From Nitrospirota bacterium (GTDB taxonomy: Bacteria > Nitrospirota > Leptospirillia > Leptospirillales > Leptospirillaceae): a stretch of 64,000 nt of DNA. The notes below the pieces were generated by a model, which ran no database searches, was not told the origin of the DNA, and saw only the letters and a program-made list of their open reading frames with translations. Position numbers and translations under genes: made by a program. Below, piece after piece: positions 58,915 through 64,000 of this stretch (position 1 is the stretch's first letter; every line of letters starts with the position of its first letter). Location of the stretch: the NCBI GenBank assembly GCA_027314645.1, contig DAHVAL010000006.1:256-64255 (forward strand), given 5' to 3'.

Positions 58915-59874
58915 TTAATTCTGCATCGAGACCTTTTCGAGGCCCGGAACAACTGGTCCCTTATAGTTCGTAATGGGAATCGGAAGCGGGCGTCCGTTTT
59001 CTCGATCAAGGGGAAGATACTTTTGAGGAACCGTGATGATTGTCGGATCATCCAATCCCAGCACCCACGTTGTCAAAGCCGTCGTCTGAAGATCGGTCAA
59101 ATGGAAGTTCGGCATGATCGTCGGGGGAACCTTAAATGCAGGAATTCCGGGAGAAATTTTCCTCGGATTCTTGAAATGCTCCCATTCCCATTCCCGTTCA
59201 GAATGGAGTCCTCCCACATGATTGAAGTCATGCACATTGTAGAAACCAAGCTCCGTCCTGCTTCCAAATCCCGACAGATCCGGGGCAAGCACCCCATGAA
59301 GGTTAAATTGGGTCATGGTATGGCAGGATCCGCATCCTTTCTGGGTGATGGTTTTTTTGGCCAGATTAAGGAACGGAGTCATCGGAGGATTCACCCCCGG
59401 CTTAAAGAGATCGGTGTGACACTTCAAACAAGAAGATTCGGCAAAAGCCCCGCGTTTTGGCTGATAGTTAAGAGTCACATTGAATCCGTGAGAATCCGCA
59501 ACCGTTGTGGCGACGCCCTGGCCGTCGTGACAGACCGTACATCCAAATTTCTCGAACGGGTGTTTTCCGATGTACCCATCGAGGTCCGGATGAGAGGTAA
59601 ACGGCTCCGGGGCGGTTTTGAACGAAGGAATTGCAATGCCCATGTGGCAGGTCATGCATCGGTCCGGCTTGTTCATGATCGGGTTCCAGATCTGAACAAT
59701 GGTCAAAGTGGAATTCGCCAATTCCGGCTTATTCGTCACTTTGGCCAAAAGCTGATAGTACTGGCGCTGGTAGGTCATCCATTCAGGATGTCCATCCTTG
59801 TACATTTCTACAAAAAAGATCCCGAGCAAGAGAACGGTCGAAAGAAAAAAGAGCAAATAAATTTTCATTTTCAT
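58915..59874 (-). CDS. membrane-anchored tetrahaem cytochrome c of the bc-type complex
   Basis: A 319-residue protein with an N-terminal anchor helix (about 4-24) and four haem c sites: CMTCH (73-77), CTVCH (112-116), CLKCH (149-153) and CGSCH (181-185). The C-terminal 130 residues resemble a class I cytochrome c tail with PNF and LTDLQ segments. It likely replaces cytochrome c1/f as electron acceptor from the Rieske protein. ATG at 59874 overlaps the stop of the small membrane protein (ATGA) after AAAGGGGAC. Last gene of the cluster. Confidence 0.92.
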   Translation of the reverse strand: MKMKIYLLFFLSTVLLLGIFFVEMYKDGHPEWMTYQRQYYQLLAKVTNKPELANSTLTIVQIWNPIMNKPDRCMTCHMGIAIPSFKTAPEPFTSHPDLDGYIGKHPFEKFGCTVCHDGQGVATTVADSHGFNVTLNYQPKRGAFAESSCLKCHTDLFKPGVNPPMTPFLNLAKKTITQKGCGSCHTMTQFNLHGVLAPDLSGFGSRTELGFYNVHDFNHVGGLHSEREWEWEHFKNPRKISPGIPAFKVPPTIMPNFHLTDLQTTALTTWVLGLDDPTIITVPQKYLPLDRENGRPLPIPITNYKGPVVPGLEKVSMQN

Positions 59875-60086
59875 TCTTTTCGTCCCCTTTCCGTTGTCTG
59901 AGCAGATTTTCTCAGGGGATGACCATCCGGATAAAAGGACCCTTCCTGCCATTGGGCGAACCAGATCAAAAGGTAATAAAAGATGGCCGTGCCGACAATG
60001 AGAGTGACCGAGATTCCGAATCGGTAGGGATACCCGAAATATTCTTCAACCCAGGGTGCATTGAGCAATTGATGAAACTGGTCCAT
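59871..60086 (-). CDS. small membrane subunit of the bc-type complex (putative)
   Basis: A 71-residue protein with one transmembrane helix (about residues 24-46, GISVTLIVGTAIFYYLLIWF). AAGGAGG lies before the ATG, and its stop overlaps the tetrahaem cytochrome start. No named family, but small single-helix subunits are usual in cytochrome bc/b6f complexes; its role here is inferred from position. Confidence 0.75.
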   Translation of the reverse strand: MDQFHQLLNAPWVEEYFGYPYRFGISVTLIVGTAIFYYLLIWFAQWQEGSFYPDGHPLRKSAQTTERGRKE

Positions 60087-60174
60087 TGAACCTCCTTGTC
60101 CAGAATTCGGACAAAACTACTCTTCCCTACCCTTTAAGGAGGCAAAATACCGGGCGCCTCCTCTTCTCACCGAA

Positions 60175-61005
60175 TTAAAAATTGATCCATGGAGTCACAA
60201 GTACATATTTGATGTTGAAGAGAAGTCTAAACACGATCTTTAAGGCCACACCCATCATGGACAGGAAAAAGAACATGAATGTGAGGTAGCGCCACAGCCC
60301 CATGGCTTTGTACATTGGTTTCCAGACAATCATGGGGATGATTGTCCACACGGCAAAATATCCGACAAAAAGGATATCTGTGATGAGCTTTCCAACTCCC
60401 TCACTGACATGAAACCAATTCATAAAGATGATGTGGAGCGGGATCAATGTCACAAGTGCTGGATTCATATGTTCGAGATGATTGCTCCAGGGCCAGTACC
60501 ACTGCCAGTCAAGGCCTCGGAGATAGGTCCCAATGACGATCGTGACCCACCAGAGGGAAAACCCGAAAGCATAGTTAAACACGGCGAACTTACGTTCGGT
60601 GTAAGTATAGTATCCGACCCCCTTGGGATTGGTATCAAGATAGGGAAACAGCATCAAACCCAAGATAATCATCCCGGGAAGGACCACCCCGGCATACCAT
60701 GGATCGAAGTAAACGAGAAGCTCCTGCAATCCGAGGAAGTACCAAGGAGCCCGCATCGGGTTTGGAGTCGTTGAAGGATCTGCCAGCGATCTGAGAGGGG
60801 CGTGTTCAAACTGGATGAGGACCATAAGCCCGACCGTGACAAGAATCGCACAAATAAATTCGATCATGAGAAGATTCGGCCAGACATTGACCGTATCCTC
60901 CGGCTCCTTTCGAATGATCGGAGCCGACTTCTTCATTAGTTCTACCAGCCCATAGGACTTTCGGGAGTCCCGGGGAAAGATTTCCCGGGTGACTTTTTCA
61001 TCCAT
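60175..61005 (-). CDS. cytochrome b C-terminal part (subunit IV-like)
   Basis: A 276-residue membrane protein corresponding to the second half of cytochrome b. The quinol-oxidation loop reads APWYFLGLQELLVYFDP (about residues 87-103) where bc1/b6f complexes have PEWY; the Glu of that motif is absent. Five or so helices follow, more than the three of chloroplast subunit IV. Paired with the b6-like gene 74 bases upstream. Confidence 0.92.
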   Translation of the reverse strand: MDEKVTREIFPRDSRKSYGLVELMKKSAPIIRKEPEDTVNVWPNLLMIEFICAILVTVGLMVLIQFEHAPLRSLADPSTTPNPMRAPWYFLGLQELLVYFDPWYAGVVLPGMIILGLMLFPYLDTNPKGVGYYTYTERKFAVFNYAFGFSLWWVTIVIGTYLRGLDWQWYWPWSNHLEHMNPALVTLIPLHIIFMNWFHVSEGVGKLITDILFVGYFAVWTIIPMIVWKPMYKAMGLWRYLTFMFFFLSMMGVALKIVFRLLFNIKYVLVTPWINF

Positions 61006-61079
61006 GCTGTCCCACCTCTCCGTTTTCTCTCGAATATCTGATTATCGGCAATATCTGGTTAATACTGTCTTCTAAATCT

Positions 61080-61841
61080 TCATAGTGGACCAGAGAAACC
61101 GTCTTTCCGAATCCGCCAAAAATGCACCGCGAGAAAGACCGTGACAACGAGGGGCAGAACCACGCAATGGAGCACGTAAAACCTGATAAGCGCATTTTGG
61201 CCCACCACCGTTCCCCCAAGCAGCATGAACATGATGTCGTTGGTCGGGAGAAATCCCAGCTGGGGACCCCACGGACCATTCTGCCCGATGAATGGGGTAT
61301 AGGACGCCATCTTTGCACCCACGGTAACCGCCCAGTACGCCAACTGATCCCACGGAAGCAAATATCCGGTCCAGGAAAGGATCAGGGTATTGACCAACAA
61401 CACCACCCCCACAACCCAGTTGAACTCCCGAGGGGCTTTATAGGCGCCGGTCAAAAAGACCCGGGTCATGTGAAGCCAAACGAAGAGGACCATCCCGTGA
61501 GCCGCGAACCGATGGAGATCGCGCATCAAGTTTCCACCAAAAATGACAAACTGGAGATCCTTGATGTTTCTGTAGGCCAGGCCGGTATAAGGAGTGTAGT
61601 AGAACATAAGCCAGATTCCAGTCAATGTCAGGATAATAAAAAGGAAGAGGGTAATCCCGCCCAGACAGAACGTATAGCGCATCCTCAGGGCGGACCTTCG
61701 GACCTTAACCGGATGGATATGGAGAAAAACATTCGTAAAAACTGCATAGGCCCGGTCCAAATCATTGTCCGGATATCCATGGCGAAAAATGGATTTAAAA
61801 ATTTGGGACTCAACAATTCCGCTTTTGAGTTTTTGAAGCAT
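61080..61841 (-). CDS. cytochrome b6-like subunit
   Basis: Membrane subunit of 253 residues binding both b haems. The ligand pairs are His110/His124 and His225/His240; the 15-residue spacing of the second pair is that of cytochrome b6 rather than mitochondrial cytochrome b (14). Cys59 in FCLGGITL matches the cysteine that covalently holds haem ci in b6f complexes. ATG after AAGGGG. Forms the quinol-oxidising core with subunit IV and the Rieske protein. Confidence 0.94.
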
Positions 61842-61862
61842 CCTTCAAGCCCCTTCTACTAA

Positions 61863-61916
61863 AAGGATCATCCCCCGAAGTCCGGATTTTCTCCGGTACA
61901 GGAGAGGATGATCCTT
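61863..61916 (-). terminator. large stem-loop between Rieske and cytochrome b6 genes
   Basis: AAGGATCATCC (61863-61873) and GGATGATCCTT (61906-61916) pair perfectly over 11 bases; inside, CCGGA pairs with TCCGG. On the minus strand it is followed by only four T in total, so it may be a weak terminator or processing site. Confidence 0.5.
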
Positions 61917-61933
61917 GGTGGCTTATTTGACGA

Positions 61934-61954
61934 CCATTTCACAAAACGAAATGG
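61934..61954 (-). repeat. inverted repeat after the Rieske gene
   Basis: CCATTTC-ACAAAAC-GAAATGG, a perfect seven-pair stem 33 bases beyond the Rieske stop and just before the larger stem-loop. Confidence 0.4.
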
Positions 61955-61987
61955 CGAACCGACGTGTACGATCGATCAAGGTCGTTT

Positions 61988-62602
61988 TTAGCAAAGGAGT
62001 CTGTTCGGTGCACACGAGCCTCCCGGAGGAGAACCATGGGTGATGTAATACGGTGAAATCTCCTTCACCTTCTCTTTTACCCACAATCCCTGTGCCGTTT
62101 GAACCGGATCCGGGTCGAGCCTGATCACGGTATTCACGATCAGTTCTCCATCAAGAGGATCCCGGGTGATCTGCCCCCTCCACAATGTCCTCGGGGCGGG
62201 GCCTCCACGCACATTGCCGTGGACGTCGTAAATTGATCCGTGGCATGGACAGCGGAACCGCTTCTGGTCCGGGAACCAGTTGGGAGTGCAGCCCAAGTGC
62301 CGGCAAATGGAAATCATATTGTAGATCCCCCGCATGTTTCTGACCACCCAAAACCGGCCCTTGAGCTTCCAGCGCTCATCGACCCCAAGACCATAGGTAG
62401 AAACATGGCCGATCTTGAAGACCGTCGGAGGTTCGTAAAGCACAGGGGGAAAAAGGAATTTATAGGTAGCATAGGCGGATCCGGCCATCGATGCCCCGAC
62501 CAGCGACCAGCCTGCCGCCACCAGAAATTTTCTGCGACCTTTTTCGGATGGGCTTAATGTCGTCTCTTCAGGGTGGCCCACACCCGCCGTTGGATTTGTC
62601 AT
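61988..62602 (-). CDS. Rieske iron-sulfur protein
   Basis: A 204-residue 2Fe-2S protein of the bc-type complex. Cluster boxes CRHLGC (Cys100, His102, disulfide Cys105) and CPCHGS (Cys118, disulfide Cys120, His121) are intact. The N-terminus has a twin-arginine-type signal anchor ([18 protein letters not shown], about 22-40), so it is probably Tat-exported. Its C-terminal tail (about 175-204) is Cys/Pro/Gly-rich and unusual. The start overlaps the oxidoreductase stop in ATGA. Confidence 0.94.
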
Positions 62603-64000
62603 TGGAGCGTAACCTCCTCTTTAATTTCGAGATGTTCCATGGCTATTGCGCCGGTGGGACATCGTTTTGCGCAAAGCCCGCATCGAATACAGCGCATCCC
62701 ATCCCATATCATTGCCGTCGACATTGAAAGAGTCTGTACGACTGGCGTCTCCAAATGTCCTGGGTGGATCTCGACGCCCGTAAAACTTTCAAGAAGCGGG
62801 GCAGTCTTTCCATGATCCAAATCGACATCCGTAAGAGGAACCATCTTGAGGGCATATTCCGGACAGACATCCACGCATCCGCCGCACAATACACATTTTT
62901 CCCCTTCAAATATGGGGTTCACATGGCACGTCAGGCATCGAGAAGCTTGGCTCCTTGCTTCCTCTTCGGTCATCGACATTTCTGCCAACTCGAAATTGGT
63001 TCTTCTGAAATCCGGATGCAGTAAATCCGGATTTTTTCTTTCGATTGTGTAGTACCCCTTCGTATTAAATTCCTCCGGCCAGATCGGGGAGGGATTCGGC
63101 CGATGAGAGACAGGGGTGGACACACCTGACTGCGTCTTCTCCACCTCTCCCTTTGAAAGGTAGGCGTGAACAGACTGGGCTGCTATTTGCCCTCCCGCAA
63201 TAGCATCAATGAAAATCCTGGGACCGGTAACGATGTCTCCTGCGGCGAAGACTCCAGGAATTCCGGTATCCATGGTGTGGATGTTGGCCCGGATGATGCC
63301 GTTCCGGCCAACGATTCCCTCCATATCCTCCGACACATACGAAGTATCGATTGTTTGGCCGATGGCGAAGAGCACCGACGTCCCCGGGATGACGCTCACC
63401 GATCCCTCGTCAAAGGTCGGGGCGAATCGGCCCTGATCATCAAAGACCGAGAGGACTTTTTTGACCTCGAGTCCTTCCATGCGGCCATTGCTGCCAACGA
63501 TCCTTTTCGTTCCGAGTCTGATCATAAACTCGGCACCCTCATGAAGGGCGTCTTCGACTTCCAGATCGTCCGCAGGCATTTCATCCCAGGTTTCAAGCGT
63601 GACAACCTTGACTTTTTCCACTCCGGGGACGCGAATGGCCGTCCGAATAACGTCCATGGCCACGTTCCCGGCCCCAACCACGATGGGGTGGGAACCTATC
63701 GGCACCGGATTGTGATGTTGATAGACAGAAATCAGGAATGGAAGGGCGGAATAGACCCCTTCGAGATCACGTCCCTCAAAAGGAATCTGACGGCTTCCCC
63801 AAGCCCCAGAGGCAAGGATAACCGCAGAAAAATCTTTCCTGAGGTCCTCCATTGTCACATCCGTCCCGACTTTCGTGTTTAACCGGGCTTCTATTCCCAT
63901 GCTCATGATGGCCGCAATTTCGGCCTCAAACAACGCTCTGGGCAAACGGTATTCTGGGACGAGGTAAAAGAGACCCCCCAGACGATGCTGGGATTCGAAT
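62599..64000 (-). CDS. FAD/NAD(P)-binding oxidoreductase with two 4Fe-4S ferredoxin motifs (5' end outside window)
   Basis: Partial gene: the frame stays open to the right edge, where FESQHRLGG and EYRLP continue the GltD-like flavin domain. Seen are the second nucleotide loop [11 protein letters not shown], the ATG-type FAD motif GVFAAGDI, a domain with CLTCH, and C-terminal ferredoxin motifs [12 protein letters not shown] and [12 protein letters not shown]. Resembles the small subunit of glutamate synthase fused to a bacterial ferredoxin. Because it overlaps the Rieske start, I infer a role as electron input or output module of the bc-type complex. Substrate unproven. Confidence 0.88.

Follow-up and report, generated by a model that had tools for sequence, protein, structure and literature searches.

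A six-gene run in a Leptospirillaceae genome probably encodes an anammox-type b6f-like complex linked to NAD(H)

Six consecutive genes in the genome of a Nitrospirota bacterium probably encode, with a probability that we put at roughly 70%, an anammox-type b6f-like complex (compare Kuste4569-4574), in which quinol, cytochrome c and NAD(H) would exchange electrons via a haem held by His41 of cytochrome b and a GltD-like flavoprotein. From the sequence comparisons set out below, we hold both this architecture and its link to NAD(H) as likely.

The genes lie on the minus strand of the window (the whole 64,000-nucleotide stretch analysed, bases 256-64255 of contig C66; the genome comprises 2.04 Mb in 69 contigs) in the order flavoprotein, Rieske protein, cytochrome b6, subunit IV, a 71-aa protein and tetrahaem cytochrome c (Table 1). 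Reading frames overlap by 4 nt at two points, between the flavoprotein and Rieske genes and between the genes for the 71-aa protein and the tetrahaem cytochrome, and the run is flanked by a divergent NAD-kinase-like gene and an ABC transporter, both named by eye. A first-pass annotation had described a split cytochrome b, a Rieske protein, a four-haem protein and a flavoprotein gene overlapping the Rieske gene; all of these parts were recovered on the minus strand, overlap included, but the run as described was incomplete, passing over the 71-aa gene between subunit IV and the cytochrome. Completion of the 5' gene, as that annotation had proposed, extended the flavoprotein 446 bases beyond the window.

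Table 1. Features of the six-gene run, in window coordinates
Feature	Position	Strand	Details
GltD-like FAD/NAD flavoprotein	62599..64000, on contig to 64446	minus	615 aa, starts MKGKYKL
Glu285 codon	63592..63594	minus	end of beta-2, NAD Rossmann fold; Glu in 122/122 relatives
Rieske [2Fe-2S] protein	61988..62602	minus	CRHLGC (100-105), CPCHGSIY (118-125)
Cytochrome b6-type subunit	61080..61841	minus	four helices; haem b His110/124/225/240, haem ci Cys59
His41 codon	61719..61721	minus	proposed dimer-interface haem b ligand; counterpart Kuste4571 His43
Subunit IV-like protein	60175..61005	minus	276 aa, ~six hydrophobic segments by hydropathy
71-aa single-helix protein	59871..60086	minus	weakly like NF052408 (36 bits; cut-off 60)
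Tetrahaem cytochrome c	58915..59874	minus	319 aa, N-terminal membrane helix, four CxxCH motifs

The order of the genes is conserved in Nitrospirota as in many other phyla, so the run is not a chance arrangement. Among the best-scoring 80 named relatives (a top-scoring set rather than a census), 74 have the flavoprotein linked to both a Rieske and a cytochrome b gene, on the same strand and within 7 kb; the other six have no cytochrome b nearby, and some of these loci lie at contig ends. The named near relatives are Nitrospirae MAGs. Comparison across Nitrospirota shows the flavoprotein gene followed by those for the Rieske protein and cytochrome b, and in most cases by one for a multihaem cytochrome; cytochrome b is either split as in the window or fused (~518 aa). 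Linked loci also occur in Acidobacteria, Ignavibacteria, Planctomycetes, Chloroflexi, Verrucomicrobia and others, and mostly carry four to eight haem c motifs each. A permuted order is seen in many Acidobacteria (L101, L109, L119 and similar loci), where the flavoprotein comes after cytochrome b and a cytochrome with six or seven haems. Judged from these loci, the cluster is common in many bacterial phyla, a wider spread than is stated in the literature that we found. Divergence of the flavoprotein is correlated with that of the Rieske protein (r=0.82) and of cytochrome b (r=0.70; maximum 0.11 in 500 shuffles, a control that leaves shared ancestry in place), a correlation that owes something to shared ancestry. 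The flavoprotein is plausibly a true subunit of the b6f-like complex, and linkage on this scale supports the earlier proposal of such a complex, in which a flavoprotein and a multihaem acceptor are joined, excepting the ferredoxin partner and the quinol-to-NAD(P) flow that it also suggested.

The flavoprotein combines a Fer4_20 N-terminus, FAD and NAD Rossmann folds and a C-terminal ferredoxin domain. Its nearest folds, by a structure predicted on an 87%-identical relative (pLDDT 88.6), are the Nfn/Stn transhydrogenase subunits and GltD. Sixteen cysteines are invariant (122/122 sequences), which is enough for four [4Fe-4S] clusters rather than the two first annotated. Eight of them sit in the C-terminal ferredoxin domain; the remaining two clusters would be bound by six N-terminal cysteines together with Cys504 and Cys507, which align with the segment placed first in Nfn. 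We guess from numbering that Arg511 of Kuste4570 corresponds to Arg503 here.

Although fold and cofactor domains are shared with Nfn, Stn and GltD, those enzymes have other partners, while the flavoprotein has a cytochrome b as neighbour, and the nucleotide sites differ. Nfn, Stn and GltD carry Tyr-Arg-Arg before Met-Pro-Ala; in the flavoprotein the Arg for the NADPH 2'-phosphate is absent, and Glu285 stands in its place, just after strand 279-282, in all 122 sequences. An acidic residue at this Rossmann position usually signifies NAD(H). Since Glu285 occurs where NADPH enzymes carry Arg, we predict that the flavoprotein works with NAD(H) and not with NADP(H); ferredoxin, the partner previously suggested, finds no support in a site of this type. 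Within the same genome, a 1058-aa fusion of NuoF-like and GltD-like halves (L218:5488-8664, contig C67) provides a control for the NADPH-type motif, keeping the YRR in YYRRTREEMPA; it could be a one-chain relative of the Nfn/Stn transhydrogenases. Glu is also found in two more distant flavoproteins (L074, L075) with no cytochrome b found nearby, so the residue by itself is no mark of linkage. A search of the open-access literature found no description of the flavoprotein in the Leptospirillum group.

In cytochrome b, Cys59 and the pairs His110/124 and His225/240 are as first annotated, with His225 and His240 15 residues apart in b6-like fashion. A further histidine sets the linked proteins apart: His41 is present in 112/112 flavoprotein-linked cytochromes b, as constant there as the four haem ligands, versus 0/51 of the unlinked ones. 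The latter are same-phylum cytochromes b without a flavoprotein nearby, including that of the second complex in this genome, on contig C44; at 30 of the 51 loci the flanks are short (~1.5 kb), and absence of the flavoprotein is judged there on limited sequence. The motif RIRKDG is similarly confined to the linked class. The haem ci cysteine is less constant, kept in 30 and lost in 82 of the 112 linked proteins and retained in all 20 unlinked split-type ones.

AlphaFold3 models of two Kuenenia complexes place a new haem between two cytochromes b, with His43 and Arg247 in one and His62, Arg266 and Lys267 in the other as the predicted residues (PMC12954380). The spacing of 204 between His41 and Arg245 equals that of His43-Arg247 and His62-Arg266 in the published numbering, and Lys246 is also placed for the proposed dimer-interface haem. 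Conservation of His41 thereby lends support, at the level of sequence, to the haem predicted for Kuenenia. Its restriction to linked proteins and the Glu285 of the flavoprotein appear to be the two new results here.

The nearest solved Rieske protein by sequence is apparently that of Kuenenia (9rk3), and both a Ser and a Tyr are present in the second sphere of the cluster, from which a high Rieske potential is predicted; those of Kuenenia were measured at +303 and +335 mV (PMC12954380). Subunit IV has RAPWYFLGLQE in place of the PEWY motif. The 71-aa protein was found only in the family of the window organism, among the loci examined. No cytochrome f family match was found in the run, and the tetrahaem cytochrome stands there instead; its start was moved from 59952 to 59874 (MKMKIYLL), and its predicted structure (mean pLDDT 55) was set aside.

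The closest known systems come from the anammox bacterium Kuenenia stuttgartiensis: the 'NAD(P)-oxidoreductase' Rieske/cytochrome b complexes Kuste4569-4574 and Kustd1480-1485, which have been proposed to make NAD(P)H by bifurcation (Hauser 2025, PMC12954380). Shared with them are the Rieske protein, a b6-like cytochrome b, an enlarged subunit IV, a multihaem cytochrome c, a four-cluster NAD(P) oxidoreductase of the GltD type, and the His and Arg assigned to the extra haem that has been proposed. Because the run matches these complexes in kind, the idea of an NAD-linked Rieske/cytochrome b complex is not new. Of the features that mark the anammox type, the run has a GltD-like gene alongside the Rieske and cytochrome b genes, the haem His and Arg/Lys, and cysteines for four clusters. 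The subunit IV of the anammox type has five helices; for the one here, hydropathy gives about six hydrophobic segments. The Kuenenia complexes have six or eight haems c and an HAO-like octahaem partner, whereas the run has four haems c and no such partner; it also has an extra 71-aa helix protein and probably uses a different quinone. The b6f-like operon of Nitrospina gracilis and Methylomirabilis, a type also present in Kuenenia, shares the split b6-type cytochrome b and a multihaem cytochrome, but the parts of its description at hand name an octaheme protein and mention no flavoprotein (PMC3578206). Cyanobacterial and chloroplast b6f complexes share the split cytochrome b, the haem ci Cys and the 15-residue His spacing, but have the cytochrome f and PEWY motif that are missing here and have neither the flavoprotein nor His41.

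In the proposed mechanism, the quinol site on the periplasmic side would be the point of electron exchange. One electron would pass through the Rieske protein to the tetrahaem cytochrome c, and the other via haems bL and bH to an extra haem b between two cytochrome b subunits, held by His41. From there it would reach NAD+ by way of the GltD-like subunit in the cytoplasm, with its four [4Fe-4S] clusters and FAD, or would take the opposite course, starting from NADH. If the assembled complex works in this way, complex III exchanges electrons with NAD(H) directly, and reverse electron flow in lithoautotrophs would have to be redrawn. An idea framed around anammox would also extend to many phyla, with two sharp sequence tests: His41 for the haem and Glu285 for NAD.

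The direction of flow was considered in an energy estimate in which all inputs were assumed: pH 2 outside and 6.5 inside, an acceptor at +0.55 to +0.70 V, and a quinone at the +57 mV of the Nitrospira methyl-plastoquinone (PMC12324825). Neither MqnA nor MenD was found over cut-off in a search of the genome for quinone-synthesis genes. With these acidophile values, NADH formation is uphill by ~0.4-0.8 eV per NADH, the reverse direction is downhill, and a plain reverse bc1 is near balance. NuoD/E/F/G-type complex I genes are present in the genome and therefore offer another NADH route in the cell. The first-pass annotation put forward electron flow in reverse, with quinol reducing NAD(P), as something of use to an iron oxidiser; this is plausible in kind but uphill at the pH gradient assumed for an acidophile.

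Forward bifurcation, in which quinol electrons are split between the high-potential chain and NAD+ and NADH is made without complex I, is a tentative possibility: it follows the published Kuenenia proposal, where Rieske potentials are high and the architecture is alike, and accords with the first-pass annotation, but with a methyl-plastoquinone-like quinone it is feasible in the model only at a collapsed gradient, and the NuoD/E/F/G-type genes speak against it. Alternatively, electrons from NADH and cytochrome c may meet at the quinol site and form quinol while protons flow inwards, as in a low-gear reverse complex III. This confurcating use agrees with the NAD-type site of the flavoprotein and is downhill in the estimate, yet we consider it unlikely, as NADH would be spent by what is presumably an autotroph, many of the bacteria that carry the cluster are probably not acidophiles, and the energetics are based on assumed potentials. 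That the complex of this organism in particular is such a confurcating enzyme, driven by the large proton gradient and passing electrons to quinol via the His41 haem, seems improbable. Least probable of all is a flavoprotein outside the complex, an NADH:acceptor enzyme or glutamate synthase small subunit merely sharing the operon: the GltD fold and a lone GltB-like gene in the genome fit it, but that gene is on another contig with no GltD-like gene beside it, GOGAT small-subunit models score far under cut-off, and both the cross-phylum linkage and the confinement of His41 to the linked class argue for the b6f-like complex. A GltB-like partner, the case that the first-pass annotation had named against its own reading, is not favoured, since no GltD-like gene adjoins the lone GltB.

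On contig C34 (L006:1-8317) the whole operon occurs a second time, with the same genes at its flanks. Duplication of the operon was rejected: the copy is 93.8% identical in DNA to the locus of another species and 76% to that of the window, and its GC is lower, so the contig is probably misbinned. A second Rieske/cytochrome b pair is encoded on contig C44 (L008:6410-8736), its 312-aa Rieske protein bearing an N-terminal extension that resembles a PRC-barrel by eye. On contig C1 (L222:2845-13960), membrane hydrogenase- or complex-I-like genes adjoin apparent 2-oxoacid:ferredoxin oxidoreductase genes, also named by eye.
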